Assembly (NCBI GenBank): GCA_947629515.1 | Contig: CANRDY010000001.1 | Coordinates: 88,948-132,584 of the forward strand | Direction: 5' to 3' | DNA: 43,637 nt | DNA from: an uncultured Clostridia bacterium | Lineage (GTDB): Bacteria; Bacillota; Clostridia; Christensenellales; Borkfalkiaceae | Shown: piece by piece, positions 4,382 through 30,670 of the stretch | Numbering within the stretch: the stretch's first letter is position 1 | Layout of the letters: each line of letters starts with the position of its first letter | Made by a program: the position numbers and the translations under genes | Notes under the pieces: model-generated | Told to the model about the DNA's origin: nothing | Database searches by the model: none | Seen by the model: the letters and a program-made list of their open reading frames with translations, nothing else

Positions 4382-4860
4382 TGGACGGTATTTGCAGAGC
4401 TGTTTTGGGAAGAATTTTCGCGCTGGGCGTTGCGGGGAGATACATCGTCGTTTCCGCCGACGAACTGTGCGAGGGGCTCGACTGCGAACTGCCCGACGAG
4501 GCGTCGCTGAAAAAAGCCCTTAAAAGTCTGAACGCCGAGGGATATATCGACTTGAAGTACACGGGCGGAAATATGTTCTGCCTTGCGCCGATAAAGCCCG
4601 CCCCCGAAGAAAAGCCCGCGCCCGAGGAAAAGCCGGATTTTTCGGAAGCCTTAAACACGGGCGAAAGGGACAAGTTGCGTTCGGGTGAGGCTCAAAATAC
4701 TCGGTCCGCCAATAAAACACAGGGCGAAAGCTCCGTGACGGAAGCCGGAAGTTCCCCCAAAAAATTCAATAAAATGCAATACGTGTTGAGTTTTGCGTGC
4801 GCTTTTTTGGGAGCGGCGACGGGAGCGGCGGCTGTGTGCTCGCTCTTTACGCTATTTTGA
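4381..4860 (+). CDS. Small winged-helix-like protein with C-terminal membrane anchor (copy 1)
   Basis: 159 residues, family not recognised. Residues 1-70 look like a compact winged-helix domain: helices through ADELCEGL and EASLKKALKSLNAEGYIDL, then a wing strand pair (KYTGGNMFCLAPI). A Pro/Glu linker follows (PAPEEKPAPEEKP), and one C-terminal membrane segment (VLSFACAFLGAATGAAAVCS). The next gene has the same architecture and similar helix-wing spacing, so the two are probably tandem paralogues. The combination suggests a membrane-tethered DNA- or protein-binding module, but the target is unknown. Confidence 0.65.
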   Translation: MDGICRAVLGRIFALGVAGRYIVVSADELCEGLDCELPDEASLKKALKSLNAEGYIDLKYTGGNMFCLAPIKPAPEEKPAPEEKPDFSEALNTGERDKLRSGEAQNTRSANKTQGESSVTEAGSSPKKFNKMQYVLSFACAFLGAATGAAAVCSLFTLF

Positions 4861-4861
4861 A

Positions 4862-5221
4862 ATGCTCAACAGATCCGAAAACGAAATTATGCAGGCGGTC
4901 TACAGCCTGTGCGACGGCACCGAGGGCTGCCTTGTTTCCCCCGCCGACATACTCGCCGTTCTGCCGCCAAAAAGATATTATAACACCGACGAGCTTGACG
5001 ACATTCTGAACGCCTTGCACTGCGACGGGTATTTCGACCTTATCTACTCCGAGAGAAAGGGCGAGAGAATGTACCTTATAAGCCTTAAAGAGAGCGGCTT
5101 TGCGTTCAGGCGCACGGCAAAGCAAAAACAGCGCGACATAACCTTCAAAATTTTTCTGGCGTTTTTGGGCGCGCTCGCCACCTTTGTGTTCGGTCTTGTG
5201 TTAAAGAGCCTGTTCGGGTGA
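4862..5221 (+). CDS. Small winged-helix-like protein with C-terminal membrane anchor (copy 2)
   Basis: 119 residues. The start at 4862 lies one base past the stop of copy 1. A longer in-frame extension overlaps copy 1 and is unlikely. It has an N-terminal helical/winged-helix part (NEIMQAVYSLC, then LDDILNALHCDGYFDLIYSE and wing strand GERMYLISL), a short basic link (FRRTAKQKQR) and one membrane helix (FLAFLGALATFVFGLVLKSL) at the very C-terminus. It shares the (L/N)-A-(E)-GY-DL-Y pattern with copy 1. Both are in the rqcH transcription unit, which ends at the hairpin just downstream. Confidence 0.65.
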   Translation: MLNRSENEIMQAVYSLCDGTEGCLVSPADILAVLPPKRYYNTDELDDILNALHCDGYFDLIYSERKGERMYLISLKESGFAFRRTAKQKQRDITFKIFLAFLGALATFVFGLVLKSLFG

Positions 5222-5222
5222 G

Positions 5223-5275
5223 AAGACCGCCCGCGGCGCGCAAACTTTTTGCGCGCCGCGGGCGGTCTTGTTTTT
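5223..5275 (+). terminator. 19-bp perfect hairpin terminator (repeat H, copy 1)
   Basis: Perfect 19-bp stem (5223-5241 with 5251-5269) and a 9-base loop AAACTTTTT, followed by GTTTTT. It terminates the rqcH-linked genes on the plus strand. A 43-bp core (5226-5268) is identical to the hairpin at 8143-8185. Confidence 0.85.
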
Positions 5276-5320
5276 ACAAATTTTTATAACGGCTTTTATA
5301 ACGACGTCGGCGTCGGCGGA

Positions 5321-5797
5321 TCAGACTTTATTCAAAATATCTATGGCGCGGGCGGCGTTTTCGCCCGTAAGACCTGCGGCGATATCGGTTTTTATCAGGT
5401 TATCGGTCAAATCGCAACCGTCGTAATCGAACTGAACGTCGTCCAGAATAACGTAGTTTGTAACTTTGTTGCGATATATAAAGTCCAAAATGCTTTCGCC
5501 GCGGCTGAAATACACCCCGTTATGACTATCCGAAGTTTTATCGTAAACTTCCAGCCCGTGGCTTTTGAACTTTTTGTCGAGATAGTTTGCAAGTGTGTCC
5601 TGCCTGAACTTGTCTTTTTGCAGTTTTTGCCAATGGCTTTTCCATGTGGAAACGAGGACGAACTTCGCGCCCGTCATATCCGCGATTTTTTTTAATATCG
5701 AAAGTTTATCGTCGTCAATGCCGACATACTTCCCGCAACGCGAGCGGGAAGTTTTGCAATTCAACACACCGTCGATATCGAGAAAAATCACCTTCAT
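5321..5797 (-). CDS. HAD-like protein of the RNA-repair (Swiss Army Knife) type
   Basis: 158-residue HAD-superfamily protein. Motif I is at the N-terminus (FLDIDGVLN, with the two catalytic Asp). Motif II Thr/Ser follows in FVLVSTWKSHWQ and the acidic motif in YVILDDVQFDY. The compact form, with an STWK-type motif and no large cap, matches the HAD domain described in Swiss Army Knife RNA-repair proteins. Those are inferred to act as phosphatases on RNA ends. It lies 8 bp after kptA and is last in a four-gene operon. An AAGGGAAAG site precedes the ATG. The substrate is inferred only from family and neighbour. Confidence 0.75.
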   Translation of the reverse strand: MKVIFLDIDGVLNCKTSRSRCGKYVGIDDDKLSILKKIADMTGAKFVLVSTWKSHWQKLQKDKFRQDTLANYLDKKFKSHGLEVYDKTSDSHNGVYFSRGESILDFIYRNKVTNYVILDDVQFDYDGCDLTDNLIKTDIAAGLTGENAARAIDILNKV

Positions 5798-5805
5798 CTT
5801 TCCCT

Positions 5806-6330
5806 TTACAACACCTCGATATATTTTGTCGGAACGCGCTCAGTAAGCCATACGCCGTTTGCGGTCTGATAAAATTTATAGCCGTCCTTTGCCATTTGCC
5901 CCGCATATATGCCCAAAACAACGGGCTTGCCGTGCCTTGCACCCGTATTTTCAGCCATAACTTTGTCCGTCGACAAATGGACGAAATTGCGGCTCTTTTT
6001 ATCCAGCCCGAATTGCAGTATGCTTTGTAAAAACTTTTCCGAAGTGCCGTGATATAATATCTTTGGCGGGGTCTGCGTTTGAAGCCCCAAATCAACGGGC
6101 AGGGAATGACCGTACCTTGCGCGTATTTTGCTCTTGTCGTCGTTAAACTCGAACCGACCCATGCAATCGTCGTTGACGAGCTTTATAAGGATAGCCCTAT
6201 TTATAACTTTACCCGACTTTTGCGCGCCCGCTATAAGCTCGTTGACGTTCGCCCAACCGTTTTTATCGAGTTCAATGCCGCAAGCCGCGGGATCGTGCCT
6301 CAAAATGTATGAAAGATATTTGCTTGTCAT
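5806..6330 (-). CDS. kptA: RNA 2'-phosphotransferase KptA/Tpt1
   Basis: Full-length (174 residues) Tpt1/KptA family enzyme. In the family it removes a 2'-phosphate from RNA by transfer to NAD+, giving ADP-ribose 1'',2''-cyclic phosphate and nicotinamide. Visible family features: the N-terminal winged-helix part with KYLSYILRHDP and the partner GWANVNELI, the R/H pair in RYGHSLPV, then the NAD-binding part with LYHGTSEKFLQSIL, FVHLSTDKVMAENTGARHGKPVVLGI and FYQTANGVWLTERVPTKYI. Bacterial KptA has no known splicing substrate. Here it sits in an operon with a HAD of RNA-repair type and two unknowns. The ribosome site is weak, suggesting coupling to the upstream gene 20 bp away. Confidence 0.92.
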   Translation of the reverse strand: MTSKYLSYILRHDPAACGIELDKNGWANVNELIAGAQKSGKVINRAILIKLVNDDCMGRFEFNDDKSKIRARYGHSLPVDLGLQTQTPPKILYHGTSEKFLQSILQFGLDKKSRNFVHLSTDKVMAENTGARHGKPVVLGIYAGQMAKDGYKFYQTANGVWLTERVPTKYIEVL

Positions 6331-6350
6331 AAACTTTTTACCGACTTAAA

Positions 6351-7169
6351 TTATTTATTTCTACCGAAAACGGTTGCGGCGACGTGCGCTTTCAATAACA
6401 GTTTTGCGTTGGAAAACGCTTTGAATATGTGATAAAAATATTCATCGGCGAAATTATAACCGTAACCGACCTGCAACGCATGATTCAAAAATTTTTTTCT
6501 GCGTTCGGAAAAGCGGACGTCATTTGCGGAAAAACTCCCGTCGCACTCCCTCCTCATCAGATCGGCTTCGGCATAGGTAAAACCGCCCATGCGCGATAAA
6601 AGCTCCGTCGCCTGTTCTATCCAGATCATTTTGCCCTTGGAATCGGCAAGGACTTCATTGACAAACTGATAATTGACGGCGGGTAAAAGTCCATTGCCGT
6701 AATTTTGCTGTTCTTTGCTCAATATTCCGTATTCCAAAGCCCGTTTTATAACTATCTCGTCAAAACGCAGTTCCTCTTCTTCGGGAGTGAACGCGGGCTT
6801 TTCGGCAAAGACTATTTTATATTCGGGCTTTACGTCAACCAATGGATTTATAAATATCTCGAACGGCGACCACTCCCACAGCCTGTCCATCGGCAAACCC
6901 GCCCATAGCGGTTTTAACGTCGTCGCGCCGACGGCATACAATAAAAAGCTGCAATTTGCCGCGCCTTCCACAAAAAAGTCGCCCTTTTTGCGCGCCTCGT
7001 CGGCTTGATTTACAAAGGACATGATAAGCCCGACCGCGTCGGTCTGTTCTATTATATCGAACTCCCTTTTAAGTCTTAACTTTTCAGCCTTTGAAAAGTA
7101 CGGATAAAATATATTTTTTGCCCGCCTTGCCGCCGCCCTTTGCCACAGTTCTTTTAATTGTTTTTGCAT
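6351..7169 (-). CDS. Orphan protein derived from DNA polymerase III alpha (DnaE palm/fingers), catalytic acids missing
   Basis: 272 residues. Two blocks read like bacterial DnaE. First, LIMSFVNQADEARKKG...FFVEGAANCSFLLYAVGATT (pieces) aligns with the DnaE pattern LIV.DFVN.AK..GI...GRGSAAGSLVAYALGIT. INPLVDV occupies the place of the catalytic PD.D.DF, and the paired Asp are not kept. Second, WIEQATELLSRMGGFTYAEA, DLMRRECDG, ERRKKFLNHAL and KAHVAATVF align with YQEQVM.IA..L.G.....AD.LRRAMGKK, the following helical segment, and NKSH..AYAL. The several hundred residues between these blocks in a real DnaE are gone. So it is a shrunken, probably inactive polymerase relative. ATG 7169 has GGAG 8 bases ahead; an upstream TTG is less likely. 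It overlaps the preceding gene by 16 bp. Similarity was judged by eye. Confidence 0.6.
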   Translation of the reverse strand: MQKQLKELWQRAAARRAKNIFYPYFSKAEKLRLKREFDIIEQTDAVGLIMSFVNQADEARKKGDFFVEGAANCSFLLYAVGATTLKPLWAGLPMDRLWEWSPFEIFINPLVDVKPEYKIVFAEKPAFTPEEEELRFDEIVIKRALEYGILSKEQQNYGNGLLPAVNYQFVNEVLADSKGKMIWIEQATELLSRMGGFTYAEADLMRRECDGSFSANDVRFSERRKKFLNHALQVGYGYNFADEYFYHIFKAFSNAKLLLKAHVAATVFGRNK

Positions 7170-7957
7170 TTTTTGATCTCCGGTGACAGCCAATAGAGCA
7201 AGTAATTATCCAACGCGCGCGGAACCGTTATTATTTTTGTATCTGCTTCTTTATACAGCTTACAGGATAAAATATAGGCTCTGCAACAGTGTTTTATATA
7301 ATCAAGCCCGTTTTCTTTTATTTTTGCATTGGGCGAACTGTAATTGACTTCATGTTTTAGCGTTTTCAATAGTTCCGTATATCTTTTTTTATCATTGACA
7401 TCAACTGAAGCCAACCCGCAATTTGAGTTAAATGCGCTTCTTAAAGTTCCCGCCGAAACGGAATCTGTGATATAAAAGACTTCGGGAACATAAAAATGCA
7501 ATAATTTACTGCTGAAAGATATAAAATTTATCAGGTCGTCATCGTCGGTTTTATCTGTTTTTTTAATTGCTTCCCTCAAAATTCTGTTGAAAGAAATCAC
7601 ACTCTCTGCCGTTTGTATTAATATCTTCTCGTCTTTTCCGCTATCAACATAACTATATCTTTCGGTTTTTAAGGTTTTGATTGCCTCTATCAGCTCCCTG
7701 TAATCTTTCATATCCAACAAATTATCGGCAAGTTCATTGAAGAACGTATCCGTTCCGTCTGCCGACATATTTGAGTTTTTATGCGATTTGTGCCTTTGGG
7801 GCGAAGCGGCATAACTCCTGCCTATCAACCATATCTGCGGAGACAAATATTCTTTGTTTAACCAATTATCGGGATCGGCGCAAAAGCCATACAGCAATTC
7901 ATTGCCTTTATTTTGCCTGTTCAAAATTTCCGCATTGTTCCATTCGTTTGTTTCCAT
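7154..7957 (-). CDS. Hypothetical protein, first gene of the kptA operon
   Basis: 267 residues, visibly more AT-rich in coding than the flanking his operon. No firm family. It has a mixed alpha/beta start with PQIWLIGRSYAASPQR, a charged helical centre (FFNELADNLLDMKDYRELIE), then LINFISFSSKLLHFYVPEVFYITDS and a C-terminal helical part ending YLLYWLSPEIKK. The S-K-(F/L)-LHF..P..F...DS pattern recalls proteins with an OGG/HhH-glycosylase-like helical fold found in uncharacterised defence-type genes. This is a weak resemblance only. A strong AGGAG site precedes the ATG and a promoter lies about 100 bp upstream. It heads an operon with the DnaE-like protein, KptA and HAD. Confidence 0.6.
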   Translation of the reverse strand: METNEWNNAEILNRQNKGNELLYGFCADPDNWLNKEYLSPQIWLIGRSYAASPQRHKSHKNSNMSADGTDTFFNELADNLLDMKDYRELIEAIKTLKTERYSYVDSGKDEKILIQTAESVISFNRILREAIKKTDKTDDDDLINFISFSSKLLHFYVPEVFYITDSVSAGTLRSAFNSNCGLASVDVNDKKRYTELLKTLKHEVNYSSPNAKIKENGLDYIKHCCRAYILSCKLYKEADTKIITVPRALDNYLLYWLSPEIKKCKNN

Positions 7958-8056
7958 AATTATTTTTCTCCTGCGTTTTATTTTTTAAGCCGTTGAAATT
8001 CGGCGCGTTACTGCTTGAAAGCCCTTGAAAAGTTACCCTTTTTTCGGCTTTTTTAT

Positions 8057-8085
8057 ATTCTACCACAAACCTTTTAAAATCCCAA
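8057..8085 (-). promoter_or_regulatory. Promoter of the kptA-containing operon
   Basis: Minus strand: TTGGGA (8080-8085), 17-base spacer, TAGAAT (8057-8062). The 5' UTR of about 95 bases to the ATG at 7957 shows no clear structure. The operon therefore has its own promoter, separate from the his operon whose terminator lies just upstream. Confidence 0.6.
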
Positions 8086-8142
8086 CTATAATTCGGCATA
8101 CGCAAAAAGCGACATATTTGACGTTAATTATCTTAAAATCAA

Positions 8143-8185
8143 ACCGCCCGCGGCGCGCAAACTTTTTGCGCGCCGCGGGCGGTCT
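8143..8185 (-). terminator. Terminator of the his operon (repeat H, copy 2)
   Basis: A 16-bp perfect stem (8143-8158 with 8168-8183) with loop AAACTTTTT, 22 bp after the hisIE stop on the minus strand and followed by TTGATTTT. All 43 bp are identical to 5226-5268, so copies of one hairpin bracket the four-gene kptA operon. Confidence 0.8.
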
Positions 8186-8207
8186 GGTTTACCGAATTAA
8201 ACCTAAT

Positions 8208-8852
8208 TTACTTCATATGCTGCTGTTTGACTTTTTTGTCGACGACGTGGCGTTTTTTAAGCTCGTCGAGCACTTCCGCGGGCGTTATCTGCGCCTCCGC
8301 CATAAGCACCATTACGTGATAGTAAAGGTCGGCTATTTCGAATATGATTTCGGCTTTGTCGCCGCCCTTGCCCGCGATTATTACTTCCGCGCTCTCCTCG
8401 CCTATCTTTTTCAATATCTTGTCCACGCCCTGCGAGAAGAGGTAGCTCGTGTACGAACCCTCCTGCGGGCTTGTCTTTCTGCCCTTTATAAGCTCGTACA
8501 ACTTTTCGGGCGAGAACTCCTTTAACTCCTCCGAGCTGAACACGTAGTCGTTGAAACAGCTGTCCGTGCCGAGGTGGCAGGCGGGTCCTTCCTTTACCAC
8601 TTCCACCCACAGCGCGTCCCTGTCGCAGTCGGCTTTGATGAACACTATGTGCTGAACGTTGCCCGAGGTCTCGCCCTTTCTCCAAAGGCACTTTCTCGAG
8701 CGCGACCAAAAGCACGTTCTGCCCTCGTTCAGGCTGATTTCAAGGCTCTCGCGGTTCATATACGCGACGGTCAAAACCTTTTTGCTGTAAAAATCGGTGA
8801 CGACCGCGGGGATAAGCCCGTCGGTAAATTTGAGTTCGTCTATATTGAGCAT
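8208..8852 (-). CDS. hisIE: HisIE, phosphoribosyl-AMP cyclohydrolase / phosphoribosyl-ATP pyrophosphatase
   Basis: Bifunctional enzyme for steps 2 and 3 of histidine synthesis, cytosolic, 214 residues. HisI domain about 1-110: VTDFYSKKVLTVAYMNRESL, TCFWSRSRKCLWRKGETSGN, then the zinc/magnesium site DCDRDALWVEV and CHLGTDSCF. HisE domain about 120-205: YLFSQGVDKILKKIGEESAE, then DLYYHVMVLM. A longer reading frame starts 45 bases upstream, but the ATG at 8852 has AAGGAG and the family N-terminus. It is the last gene of the his operon, followed by the hairpin terminator. Confidence 0.96.
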   Translation of the reverse strand: MLNIDELKFTDGLIPAVVTDFYSKKVLTVAYMNRESLEISLNEGRTCFWSRSRKCLWRKGETSGNVQHIVFIKADCDRDALWVEVVKEGPACHLGTDSCFNDYVFSSEELKEFSPEKLYELIKGRKTSPQEGSYTSYLFSQGVDKILKKIGEESAEVIIAGKGGDKAEIIFEIADLYYHVMVLMAEAQITPAEVLDELKKRHVVDKKVKQQHMK

Positions 8853-16040: not shown

Positions 16041-16234
16041 AGTCTTAAAATATCAATATATATTTATTTTTTTGGTTTTTTTAGGGGGTGAGTGCGGGGT
16101 GGGGGAGAAGAACCGCAGCGTTATCGACCCGCTCATTCGCTCCCCTTCGCGGCTTGCCCTTGCCCCTATTCGCCCCCTCTCACAAGTGAAGGGGCGCGAA
16201 TGGGGAAGTTTAGGGCGTTCGGTCGCCCTTGCCT
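16041..16234. other. hisR-hisZ intergenic gap, G/C-rich repeat flank
   Basis: An AT-rich stretch next to hisZ (16041-16085), then GC-rich repeat material. Hairpin-like parts are CCCCCTC with GAAGGGG around 16180-16196 and AGGGCG with CGCCCT around 16212-16229. The latter hairpin recurs near 30509 as AGGGT with ACCCT, a compensatory C-G to T-A change. No ORF, T-box or clear promoter. Confidence 0.5.
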
Positions 16235-16395
16235 GAACGAAGTTAGAAAGTCCGAAGAAGCAAGTTATGCAAGGAAAGCGAGGAAAACCCGAAGGAGCTT
16301 ACAATGACGTAAGTGTCGTACCGAAGGCGTTAGCCTTACTGAGGGTTGCCGCAACTTGACACAGCAGAACGTAGCTTATTCGGGCTTTGCGGGAG
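16235..16395 (+). repeat. Structured repeat R4, copy A
   Basis: A copy of the element also at 22278-22436 and 30532-30670. Outer stem: 16247-16255 with 16380-16388 (AAAGTCCGA/TCGGGCTTT, one T-G wobble) and AAGC/GCTT (16258-16261, 16374-16377). Inner hairpins: CTTAC/GTAAG (16298-16302, 16309-16313), TGTC/GACA (16314-16317, 16358-16361) enclosing AAGGC/GCCTT (16324-16328, 16333-16337). Several pairs differ from copy C by compensating changes. It lies 9 bp past the hisR stop, inside the his operon. Confidence 0.75.
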
Positions 16396-16944: not shown

Positions 16945-18852
16945 TCACCCCTCGCGCTTCCAATAATAATTGCGATAAGTATCCGTCAACAAATTCGCAT
17001 TATTTACATCGTCGGCAACTGCTACAGCTTCCGCCCCCGTCATATCCTCGTTTTGTGAAACCTTCCACCCCGTCTTATTCTCAAAAGTTACACTTTTAAG
17101 GCTGCACCACTCGAACGCCCACTTGCCGATAAATGTTACGCCGGCGGGGATAGTTATGCTTTCAAGTCTGTCGCAACTAGAGAACGCGTCGTCGCCTATA
17201 GTTTCAAGTTTGCTGTTATTGCCAAAATTTACACTTGCAAGGTATGTGCACTGCTCAAACGCCCTCTTACCGATAGAAGTTACGCCGGCGGGAATAGTTA
17301 TGCTTTTAAAGCTTTGGCATTCATAGAACGCAAGACTGCCGATAGACGTTACCCTGTTAGGTATGGTTATGCTTTCAAGGCTTGCGCAAGCATAGAACGC
17401 CATATCACCGATAGAAGTAATCCTTTCGGATAAGGTTATTCTGTTAAGTTTTTTGCAATTGGCGAACGCACTTTCGCCGATAGAAGTAATGCTGTCGGGT
17501 ATAGTCGCTTCTTTAATTGCTATAGGGACAAATATTATATCGGTTTTTTCTTTATTATACAAAATTCCGTCTTGACTTGAATATACCGTGTTCTTTTCTC
17601 CGACATTAATACTTTCAAGGCTTTCGCACGCCTTAAATGTATTACTGCCTATAGAAGTTATACTGTCAGGTAAAGTTATCGTTCCTTTAACTGCTGTAGG
17701 AATATGTATGAACTGAGTTTTTTCTTTGTTATATAAAATGCCGTCTTGACTTGAATATACCGTGTTCTTTTCTCCGACATTAATACTTTCAAGGCTTTTG
17801 CAAATACTGAACGCCCCATCGCCGATAGAAGTTACGCTGGCGGGGATAGTTATGCTTTTAAGGCTTGTGCACTGAAAGAACGCACGACTGCCGATAGAAG
17901 TTACGCTGTCGGGTATTGTTATGCTTGTAAGGCTTATGTAACCATAGAACGCCATATCACCGATAGACGTTACGGGCTTGCCGTCGTATATTGCGGGTAT
18001 TATTATGTTATTATCGGTTGCCGTACCTCTATTGACCGCACATGTATTATCACTTAACAGTGAATATTTTAGATTGACGGTTAAAGCTGTACCGCAGTTT
18101 GCGCAAACATTTTCGCCCGCGTTCAAAACATGCCCGTTACCGTCAACGGGTAATGTCAATAATTGCTGTTCCGAAACTTCGATTTTATCTTTGTTGAAAA
18201 ATTTTCCGCAAGCGCAGTGATAGTGCGCTTCAATACCCGTGGTTGTGCAAGTTGCGGGCGTTATTATCAATTCACCGAAATCGTGCGCCGTGGGGTCGAT
18301 TTGCATTTTGCGGGTTTCTTTATGATTTTCGTCTGACTTGCAGGTGCGCGTTTCTTCGCCTTGCGCGGAACAAGTGGCAGGGATCGTGATCTCCCATTCG
18401 TCCCAATCGTGCGCTTCAGGGTCAATTTGTATTTCGCGGGTTTCTTTATGATTTCCGTTTAATTTGCAAGTGCGGGTTTCTTCGCCCTGTGCCGAACACG
18501 TTGCGTGGGTCGTTATTTCCCATTCACCGAAATCGTGCGCAGTGGGATCGATTTGCGTTTGACGAGTCATTTTGTGACTTGAGTCTAATCGGCAAGTGCT
18601 GGTTTCTATCCCCGGCGAAGAACAAGTCGCGGGGGTCGTTACTTCCCATCTGTTCCAAATGTGTACGTGCTCGGTGTTTTCGCCCGAGCTTCCGCTGTTG
18701 TTGCCACTGTTGCCACTGTTGCCCGAATTGCCGCTTTGTTCGGCAGTATTGCCCTTGTTATTGTTCGGGGCGGGGGTGCATGCCGAAATGGCGAAAGCAA
18801 GGCAGAAGGTCGCCGCAAGGGCGAGTAAAATTACCAAAAATCTCTTTTTCAT
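16945..18852 (-). CDS. BspA-like leucine-rich-repeat surface lipoprotein
   Basis: 635 residues. Lipoprotein signal peptide MKKRFLVILLALAATFCLAF then AISAC (lipobox Cys about 25). An Asn/Gly/Ser linker with GNSGNSGNSG follows, then four Cys-containing repeats of about 47 residues (WEVTTPATCSSPGIETSTC; HDFGEWEITTHATCSAQGEE and so on), a motif common in clostridial surface proteins. From about residue 285 come 23-residue LRR_5/BspA repeats of the form LESITIPDSVTSIGSRAF, with two near-identical longer repeats containing NTVYSSQDGILYNKEKT. Such proteins are adhesins or host-matrix binders; the ligand here is unknown. ATG 18852 follows AAAGGAG. Expression is probably governed by the structured leader upstream. 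Confidence 0.9.
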   Translation of the reverse strand: MKKRFLVILLALAATFCLAFAISACTPAPNNNKGNTAEQSGNSGNSGNSGNNSGSSGENTEHVHIWNRWEVTTPATCSSPGIETSTCRLDSSHKMTRQTQIDPTAHDFGEWEITTHATCSAQGEETRTCKLNGNHKETREIQIDPEAHDWDEWEITIPATCSAQGEETRTCKSDENHKETRKMQIDPTAHDFGELIITPATCTTTGIEAHYHCACGKFFNKDKIEVSEQQLLTLPVDGNGHVLNAGENVCANCGTALTVNLKYSLLSDNTCAVNRGTATDNNIIIPAIYDGKPVTSIGDMAFYGYISLTSITIPDSVTSIGSRAFFQCTSLKSITIPASVTSIGDGAFSICKSLESINVGEKNTVYSSQDGILYNKEKTQFIHIPTAVKGTITLPDSITSIGSNTFKACESLESINVGEKNTVYSSQDGILYNKEKTDIIFVPIAIKEATIPDSITSIGESAFANCKKLNRITLSERITSIGDMAFYACASLESITIPNRVTSIGSLAFYECQSFKSITIPAGVTSIGKRAFEQCTYLASVNFGNNSKLETIGDDAFSSCDRLESITIPAGVTFIGKWAFEWCSLKSVTFENKTGWKVSQNEDMTGAEAVAVADDVNNANLLTDTYRNYYWKREG

Positions 18853-18871
18853 AAAATTTCTCCTTTGTGCG

Positions 18872-19060
18872 GTAAAAAAATAAGGTGTGCTCCCGAAAGA
18901 GCACACCGCACGGTATCTCTTACGGTTACCACACCTTCAATACATATTCGTCAGCCGAAAAGTTATATCAAAAGAGATACACAATGCCAGATTGTGTATT
19001 TCGACTGATGATATGCACAAGGCTGTTCACTTTGTGCGTATGGATTGAAAATGTGGTAAC
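18872..19060 (-). ncRNA. Structured 5' leader with intrinsic terminator (candidate riboswitch/attenuator)
   Basis: Minus-strand leader between a strong promoter and the BspA-like gene. P1: GTTACCACA (19052-19060) pairs with TGTGGTAAC (18925-18933). Inside are a hairpin GCACAA/TTGTGC (about 19036 to 19016) and a stem CAGTCGAAA (18999-19007) with TTTCGGCTG (18952-18960), which encloses ATACACAAT/ATTGTGTAT (18991-18999, 18977-18985). A terminator GGTGTGCTC/GAGCACACC (18899-18907, 18884-18892) plus a run of T (18874-18880) then precedes the ribosome site. GTATCTCTT (18972-18980) is complementary to AAGAGATAC (18913-18921) and competes with the last hairpin. It matches no riboswitch class I could recall. 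Confidence 0.65.
18884..18907 (-). terminator. Leader terminator of the BspA-like gene
   Basis: Perfect 9-bp GC-rich stem with a six-base loop (TTTCGG), followed by TTATTTTTTT on the minus strand, about 30 bases before the start codon. Its position in the 5' UTR implies conditional readthrough. Confidence 0.8.
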
Positions 19061-21980: not shown

Positions 21981-22081
21981 CGCGTTTCAAAGTGCAAGCA
22001 CGGACCACGTGGGGATTCTCTCACTCAATCGAACCCGCTTCGCGGGCTTCTCATAGCGTTCGAAATGACAGTGCCTTAATG
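21981..22081 (+). repeat. Repeat R3, copy C
   Basis: About 100 bp shared with 30306-30410: CGCGTTTCAAAGTGCAAGCA, GGATTCTCTCACT, then a hairpin, then CATAGCGTTCGAAATGACAG. The hairpin here is CCCGCTTCGCGGG; in the other copy it is a different sequence that still pairs. A further GC hairpin follows at 22096-22123, and the rest to 22277 is repeat flank. Confidence 0.75.
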
Positions 22082-22277
22082 TGCTCCGATATTATGCGCG
22101 CGGGCGTTGAAACGCCCGCGCGCGAAAAGTGTTTTAATGTGATACGATATTATTTGGAATACACCCCCTCAGTCCGTAAACGGACAGCTCCCCCTCATAA
22201 ATGAAGGGGAGCGAATGTTTTTTTCATTATTCCCTCCCCCTTGATAAGGGGGAGGAATTGAAGGTGGGGGTTGCAAA

Positions 22278-22436
22278 AACGAAGTTAGAAACTTCGGAGA
22301 TGCGAGTTATGCAAGGAGCGTGCGCAAACGACGAAGGGAGCGTACAATGAAGTACGTGTCGTACCGAAGGCGTAGCCTTACCGAGGAGTGCGCAAGCGCG
22401 ACACCGCAGAACGAAGCATATACGAAGTTTGCGGCA
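22278..22436 (+). repeat. Structured repeat R4, copy C
   Basis: Outer stem AACTTCG/CGAAGTT (22290-22296, 22423-22429) with ATGC/GCAT (22300-22303, 22416-22419). Inner: CGTAC/GTACG (22341-22345, 22352-22356), TGTCG/CGACA (22357-22361, 22399-22403) enclosing AAGGC/GCCTT (22367-22371, 22375-22379). It ends 2 bp before the aminopeptidase stop codon. A CCTCCCCCTTGATAAGGGGGAGG-type hairpin (22232-22254) precedes it. Confidence 0.75.
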
Positions 22437-30305: not shown

Positions 30306-30410
30306 CGCGTTTCAAAGTGCAAGCACAGACCACCTTGGGATTCTCTCACTTAATCGCCCGCGCATTTATGCGCGGGTCTCATAGCGTTCGAAATGACAGT
30401 GCCTTAATGT
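30306..30410 (+). repeat. Repeat R3, copy D
   Basis: Matches 21981-22081 except in the internal hairpin, here CCCGCGCATTTATGCGCGGG rather than CCCGCTTCGCGGG. 30411-30531 then carries the CCCCCTC/GAAGGGGG and AGGGT/ACCCT hairpins that precede R4. Confidence 0.75.
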
Positions 30411-30531
30411 AATCCGTTCTTATTTAAAAATGCTCCCCCCTCTTCAATTCTCCCCCCTCGCAAGCGAAGGGGGAGGGTTGGGTATGGGGAGGGCGCGAAT
30501 GGGGAGTTTAGGGTGCTCGGTTACCCTTGCC

Positions 30532-30670
30532 TGTACGAAGTTAGAAACTTCGGAGATGCGAGCAGAACGAGGAGCGCGAGCAGTTTGCGAGGGAGCGTAC
30601 AATGAAGTACGTGACCGAGCAAAAGCGGAGCGCGACAATGTTATGCGAAGCATATACGAAGTTTAACGGG
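30532..30670 (+). repeat. Structured repeat R4, copy D (shortened)
   Basis: Keeps the outer stem AACTTCG/CGAAGTT with ATGC/GCAT (30546-30552, 30657-30663; 30556-30559, 30650-30653) and the CGTAC/GTACG hairpin. The TGTCG arm with its AAGGC hairpin is replaced by a shorter GACCGAGCAAAAGCGGAGCG segment. It lies 39 bp from the NusG-II stop. Confidence 0.7.

Follow-up and report, generated by a model that had tools for sequence, protein, structure and literature searches.

A catalytically gutted relative of DNA polymerase III alpha recurs beside KptA and a HAD phosphatase in a candidate RNA-end-processing cassette

Introduction

The wide distribution of the RNA 2'-phosphotransferase KptA (Tpt1) in bacteria is, according to the available portion of PMC6333775, a longstanding conundrum, many bacteria having no known route to internal 2'-phosphates. 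What such an enzyme acts on is the question raised by a locus of an uncultured Clostridia bacterium of the family Borkfalkiaceae (assembly GCA_947629515.1; 1.70 Mb in 59 contigs, completeness 92.6%), where kptA stands in a tight row with genes for a HAD-family phosphatase, a DNA polymerase-like protein (B) and a protein of unassigned function (A). We analyzed the stretch of 43,637 nucleotides (nt) of contig CANRDY010000001.1 that contains this locus, hereafter the window; its numbering is used for all coordinates unless another locus is named. A sequence-only reading had regarded the four genes as a candidate RNA repair or defence module. In this study, relatives were sought in samples of genomes from the same family (n = 151), order (n = 297), class (n = 291) and genus (n = 60 besides the host). 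We found that B is a relative of the alpha subunit of DNA polymerase III (Pol III alpha) that lacks the catalytic segment, and that B, KptA and HAD recur together in three other genomes.

Results

The four open reading frames (ORFs) are present as first reported, all on the minus strand: A (7154..7957; 267 amino acids, aa), B (6351..7169; 272 aa), KptA (5806..6330; 174 aa) and HAD (5321..5797; 158 aa). Their tight spacing was also confirmed, A and B overlapping by 16 nt and gaps of 20 and 8 nt separating B from KptA and KptA from HAD. B starts with an ATG, and an alternative TTG start at 7193 is likewise open. The naming of KptA (PF01885, 1.2e-41) and of HAD (PF18143, 4.1e-24) proved correct in a Pfam scan.

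B had been described as DnaE-like. The homology to Pol III alpha stands, and B is more exactly a catalytically gutted version of this protein. Its matches to DnaE families are weak (PF17657, 2e-4, just under the cut-off; TIGR00594, 1.2e-7, far under the cut-off). The aspartates of the PDxDxDF motif, together with a later Asp, are catalytic in C-family polymerases (Pol III alpha, DnaE/PolC). In B, the profile alignment ends at DnaE residue 396 and restarts at residue 651, and the motif occupies residues 398-404; the central 254 DnaE residues, catalytic motif included, are gone. The window protein reads PEYKIVF after FINPL, with none of the catalytic aspartates. B begins within the palm and retains the palm start and the fingers, but it has no PHP domain, falls far short of the full length of about 1,000-1,500 aa, and leaves no room for OB and C-terminal domains. 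The alignment thus shows that B corresponds to a predicted palm-plus-fingers fold of Pol III alpha without the catalytic segment.

When the 151 family genomes were searched with B at E values up to 1e-3, 19 genomes matched, 10 of which (host included) carry B relatives; the frames of 1,176-1,320 aa in G023, G005, G038, G051, G062, G045, G095, G013 and G080 are true DnaE and were discarded. A scan of genome contigs gave nine loci, from which four duplicates (L047, L051, L052 and L053) were dropped, and the B gene of L084 entered the set by way of X, a gene described below. The resulting set comprises 16 distinct B loci, the window included. B is open in 14 of them and interrupted in L022 and L028, and eight residues (R32, E36, S74, G81, P87, L191, G196 and A202) are invariant in the 12 aligned proteins. 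The most divergent member is that of L084, assigned by profile only (9.6e-7; PF07733, 4.8e-6). No confirmed relative of B, A or X was found in viral contigs, and B gave just five weak matches in phages, covering 28-30% of the protein.

The order and orientation B-KptA-HAD are the same at four of the 16 B loci, namely the window, L022 (genome G149), L045 and L046. In the latter three, identities are 52-62% for B, 65-72% for KptA and 73-82% for HAD, and the additional gene X lies between KptA and HAD. At the other 12 B loci (identity 41% downwards), neither KptA nor HAD was found in the stretches examined. Six proteins flanking the cassette in the window (rqcH side, hisIE, hisF) had no match in L022, L045 and L046, and the sole flank gene common among the four cassettes is a DUF2779 gene before B in L022 and L046. 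In the G149 copy (L022:8621-9919), B is split between frames and KptA contains a stop codon in frame; X, HAD and RtcB have open frames. The exact four-gene set was seen in the window only, yet the survey of gene neighborhoods supports B-KptA-HAD as a unit whose order is kept in three further genomes. In the same vein, KptA is fixed beside B and HAD in the four cassettes, but by itself it is usually unlinked. The proposal that two unknown proteins complete the unit needs revision: A falls outside it, B is a Pol III alpha relative, and X belongs to it elsewhere. Judging from gene order, the conserved core is B-KptA-(X)-HAD.

KptA has the profile, length and catalytic residues of the KptA/Tpt1 family, and differs by sitting in a cassette with B and HAD. 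PF01885 (PTS_2-RNA) covers residues 2-164 of its 174, and NCBIfam models match at 2.3e-65, yet under their own cut-offs. R11, H12, R59 and R114 align with R18, H19, R68 and R121 of CthTpt1 (chain 6ede_A, whose numbering is shifted by 21 relative to 6e3a_A), so that all four residues of the Arg-His-Arg-Arg tetrad named in the accessible part of PMC6333775 are in place. Lys66 of CthTpt1, near the tetrad, is replaced by Met57 in the window protein and is a Lys in L045 and L046. KptA was found in four of the 151 family genomes, two of which (host and G149) carry the cassette. A third genome, G055, has an X relative some 4.6 kb from KptA, which there overlaps the gene of a protein with an S-adenosylmethionine lyase domain (L078:5886-7762; PF23780, 1e-8). 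Among the class genomes, 20 of 291 are KptA-positive. A presumed B gene near KptA in L126 turned out to be a full-length DnaE and was dropped.

HAD scores 86 bits against a PF18143 cut-off of 27.5. Its DIDGVLN, STW and LDD sequences carry the DxD, S/T and DD motifs through which HAD enzymes act, and D7, D9, S50, T51, D119 and D120 are invariant in all four cassettes. The protein agrees with HAD_SAK_2 (HAD domain in Swiss Army Knife RNA repair proteins; PHROG 1818) in the Pfam match and the DxD motif, and differs in being a stand-alone protein (158 aa in the window) that adjoins KptA or X. Comparison of its profile with solved structures gave no convincing relative (best 0.023, a condensin). 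HAD_SAK_2 occurs in eight of the 151 family genomes (one below cut-off), two of the eight being cassettes. KptA and HAD both have relatives in phages, those of HAD in 142 phage records at E values up to 1e-3; no B or X gene was seen in the 15 viral loci profiled, and phages gave no match at the DNA level. In G122 (L089:6485-7694), a HAD_SAK_2 gene starts 10 nt after a gene that, read by eye, looks like a metallophosphoesterase.

X gave eight matches in the 297 order genomes. No Pfam family exceeded its cut-off in the members scanned, and no sequence of a solved structure matched at E values up to 5. The invariant residues are G, Q, K, N, K, H, D, Y and W. Besides the cassettes and L084, 16 X loci were profiled; among them, WYL genes lie near X in L182, L183 and L184, KptA in L078, and RtcB in L183. 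In L183 (6988-10841), X genes stand on both sides of a pair of RtcB and an RF-1-domain (PrfH-like) protein, an arrangement that resembles RtcB2-PrfH; a DUF2828 protein and an RF-1-domain gene follow the second RtcB. L184 (6796-9702) holds consecutive genes for a WYL regulator, two X proteins and a NADAR protein.

A belongs to no Pfam or NCBIfam family. Its membership in a conserved unit was not upheld, as it had no match in the L022, L045 and L046 cassettes and was found among the 297 order genomes in the host only. The only other match in the 291 class genomes is a homologue in G660 (37% identity, E 6.4e-27) that adjoins a TIR-domain protein, and a weaker relative (1.5e-5) lies in G123 (L091), about 3 kb from a HAD_SAK_2 gene. 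From this single clear homologue and the weak L091 relative, A looks like an accessory gene rather than part of the core. The structure prediction of A was unusable, with a predicted local distance difference test (pLDDT) score of 43, and a search of plasmids found no A gene. In G343, a match (E 8.7e-4) within a frame of 1,727 aa was judged spurious, and colicin A as a solved-structure relative (E 0.52) was taken as noise. Kinship of A and X through their SKLLHF and QKLLNI motifs was rejected, the profile comparison giving a probability of 0.2 on a per cent scale and no useful alignment. A presumed likeness of both to HhH-GPD glycosylases was set aside.

The surroundings of the 16 B loci (219 kb) were searched by tblastn. 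WYL genes were found at eight loci, DnaQ-like exonucleases at five, and DUF2779, X, KptA and HAD at four each; ADP-ribosylglycohydrolase, metallophosphatase, UDG-like and FLNSKDIA-family genes were found at three each, and RtcB and Smr at two each. One of the four cassettes, L022, has an ADP-ribosylglycohydrolase (one seed). Neither the WYL nor the ADP-ribosylglycohydrolase seed matched within the window's first 15 kb (one seed each; Nudix was not among the searches). Of the eight genomes checked for RtcB, G149, G424 and G751 (the L045 genome) possess it, and the RtcB gene of G149 stands some 2.8 kb downstream of the cassette HAD. In L084 (G424), genes for metallophosphatase, WYL, X, X, RtcB, DUF2779 and B follow one another. 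Some relatives lie near restriction-modification (R-M), AbiTii-like or TIR genes, and in L024 the genes before B encode a type II methyltransferase, DpnI and a DUF3800 protein. A 269-aa protein with DNAG_N and Toprim domains adjoins the B relative of L048 (3221-4030), and a 120-aa protein beside that of L024 (5417-5779) matches DnaB_C at 5.8e-5, under the cut-off.

The site of the cassette was examined among close relatives, as proposed at the outset. On the left, the last gene of the rqcH-side operon (4793..5221, plus strand) is followed by a 48-nt GC-rich hairpin resembling a bidirectional terminator (5226..5273); on the right, a second 48-nt hairpin (8143..8190), in direct orientation and 98% identical to the first, precedes hisIE (8208..8852, minus strand). 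The 23-nt hairpin core occurs exactly twice in the 1.70-Mb genome, and the 39-nt hairpin pattern, with up to three mismatches allowed, was never matched in 100 shuffled versions of the window. hisIE matched in 32 of the 60 other genus genomes, 29 of which were read as loci. Two of these, L136 and L153, display an empty site in which the orthologue of the left gene faces hisIE across one GC-rich hairpin, the stop-to-stop distances being 86 and 62 nt versus 2,986 nt in the window. The other 27 loci are uninformative because the rqcH side was not found within the stretch (at most 1.5 kb). The simplest account would be insertion at a common bidirectional terminator with duplication of the terminator; the alternative is that two like terminators were recruited independently. 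No integrase was noticed at the cassette, and no search aimed at integrases was made.

The greater AT-richness of the four genes was likewise confirmed. Their GC contents are 0.369 (A), 0.453 (B), 0.472 (KptA) and 0.447 (HAD). The other window ORFs of at least 150 aa that were picked mechanically for comparison (n = 30) average 0.551 (sd 0.029); such low GC is matched by one of the 30, a repeat-rich ORF at 16945-18906 (0.449). A weak candidate promoter on the minus strand (8057..8085; TTGGGA-17-TAGAAT, with a TG before the -10 element as in extended -10 promoters) was recognized by consensus match only, and the interval 5000-8400 holds 11 promoter-like matches, against 6.0 (sd 2.2) expected by chance. 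A single promoter common to the four genes, as the sequence-only reading assumed, is plausible.

Discussion

The reading that we prefer, to which we give a little less than an even chance, is that the locus is a horizontally acquired RNA-end-processing cassette with the core B-KptA-(X)-HAD and A as a local accessory, in which KptA and HAD would heal RNA ends and B would act as a scaffold. Damaged tRNA, rRNA or mRNA, cleaved by a toxin or a nuclease of the host or a phage, would carry 2'- and terminal phosphates. KptA would strip the 2'-phosphate using NAD+, and HAD would remove a terminal phosphate or process the ADP-ribose phosphate product; both enzymes are expected to be active because the KptA tetrad and the HAD motifs are kept. 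B, no longer polymerizing, may serve as a scaffold that binds the nucleic-acid end or a nucleotide, a role suggested by the retention of the fold and the loss of catalysis. Sealing would be left to RtcB where present (G149, G424) or to some other ligase in the host; if no ligase acted, the outcome would be end clean-up. The initial proposal of RNA repair has gained strength from the recurrence of the core, from RtcB near one cassette, and from the RNA-repair and ADP-ribose genes among which B relatives lie. A defence role may be surmised, and the cassette is a promising candidate for a kit of RNA repair or defence that can move between genomes. More tentatively, as a proposal we would sooner doubt than assert, hollowed-out Pol III alpha may have been recruited in mobile cassettes as the end- or nucleotide-sensing subunit of KptA-HAD RNA-end healing.

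Several results weigh against this interpretation. The main weakness is the ligase gap in the host: RtcB is absent from five of the eight genomes checked, including those of the host and of L046, where RtcB was the only enzyme sought and other ligases and 2H enzymes were not. Moreover, RtcB acts on 3'-phosphate or cyclic phosphate ends, and a HAD enzyme that removed 3'-phosphates would therefore not feed it. X is present in the other three cassettes but was not found in the host; in the class sample it occurs in nine of 291 genomes with a stop inside the gene in five of the nine, and no partner seed besides X was detected at 12 of the 16 X loci profiled in addition to the cassettes and L084. 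The G149 copy is either decayed or misassembled, and with B and KptA interrupted the cassette may be dispensable there. None of the 19 KptA-positive class genomes besides the host has B, X, A or HAD near KptA, within stretches of up to about 7 kb on each side (three shorter, at contig or record ends). WYL was found near none of the four cassettes (tblastn, one seed; in L046 the sequence before B ends after 1.7 kb). The control regions (49, totalling 381 kb: 19 KptA loci, 29 hisIE loci and the rest of the window) speak for the cassette, as they lacked every family found around B apart from KptA, for which they had in part been selected, and also held one true DnaE. This contrast with the B loci is an upper estimate, however, because B loci supplied the seeds, three of the loci (L048-L050) are near-identical, and the controls were not matched by lineage.

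Other explanations account for part of these data. The genes could be a loose stack of unrelated cargo gathered at a permissive intergenic site and devoid of joint function, which would suit their AT-richness, rarity and patchy occurrence (KptA in four and HAD_SAK_2 in eight of 151 family genomes), the restriction of A to the window copy, the interrupted G149 copy and the changing partners of B. However, the order and orientation of B-KptA-HAD are kept in four genomes, with overlaps or short gaps, while the flanks differ apart from DUF2779 in two, and such a stack seems to us rather unlikely. That B is a non-functional, decaying fragment of a duplicated dnaE is very improbable: 254 central residues are gone and two of 16 loci have an interrupted B, yet the frame is open in the remaining 14 and eight residues are invariant among the 12 aligned proteins.

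The cassette could instead be offensive, KptA being an RNA ADP-ribosyltransferase (ART) effector against phages or other bacteria, B targeting it to nucleic acid, and HAD limiting the damage, a task for ADP-ribosyl hydrolases elsewhere. According to PMC11833690, RNA ends with a 5'-phosphate can be ADP-ribosylated by a Tpt1/KptA-like enzyme, and the existence of KptA/Tpt1-like toxins has been suggested. The ADP-ribosylglycohydrolase genes near three of the 16 B loci, the NADAR protein near X in L184, and the R-M, AbiTii-like or TIR genes near some relatives point the same way. We nevertheless consider this unlikely, given that the first 15 kb of the window holds no relative of the ADP-ribosylglycohydrolase seed (macro and NADAR were not searched) and that PADLOC models gave no match to A, B, KptA or HAD at E values up to 1. 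As a replication decoy, B would mimic a piece of Pol III alpha and act as a dominant negative on phage DNA, deoxynucleotides or replisome partners, KptA and HAD being passengers or serving for clean-up. The palm-start and fingers motifs kept by B, the truncated replication proteins near its relatives in L048 and L024, and the methyltransferase, DpnI and DUF3800 genes before B in L024 would fit. On the other side, all four loci of the close clade link B with KptA and HAD, the DnaG-like gene was picked in just one of three near-identical loci, no relative of B was confirmed in viral contigs, and its phage matches are few, weak and partial; we find the decoy quite unlikely.

Modular RNA-repair systems were reportedly described by Burroughs and Aravind in 2016. 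The cassette resembles RNA-repair operons (RtcAB, RtcB2-PrfH and the modular systems) in its RNA end-modifying enzymes, here KptA and HAD_SAK_2, in its shuffled partners, and in the RtcB near some relatives; it differs by a DnaE-derived subunit and by having no ligase. The islands of shuffled phosphatase, ADP-ribosylglycohydrolase and WYL genes around B relatives are reminiscent of the WYL/Nudix-regulated ADP-ribosylglycohydrolase systems of PMC9503650. In that source, lack of a coupled ART was the criterion by which the systems were sought, whereas the cassette has KptA coupled and no WYL was found near the four cassettes. RNA-repair and ADP-ribose islands are already known, and the novelty is the gutted polymerase. 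A search of titles and abstracts for gutted DnaE in RNA-repair loci, with incomplete journal coverage, found no cassette built on such a protein. In the parts available, the polymerase survey of PMC3919608 removed fragments without an intact active site, and PMC12926913 describes four C-family groups with no gutted group among them; a Pol III alpha cut to a 270-aa pseudo-polymerase, absent from these parts of both surveys, is unexpected. If the sensing-subunit proposal is true, bacterial KptA would have a partner of its own and a substrate related to conflict. Because the cassette is compact and its partners (HAD, X and the polymerase-derived subunit) are fixed, the substrate of KptA becomes directly testable.

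Other features of the window

The AT-rich ORF at 16945-18906 encodes 653 aa and contains a 69-nt repeat and other tandem-like repeats; it is probably a repeat protein. In addition, the blocks 16229-16388, 22042-22430 and 30306-30664 contain the dispersed repeat families D6, D8, D10, D12 and D16.

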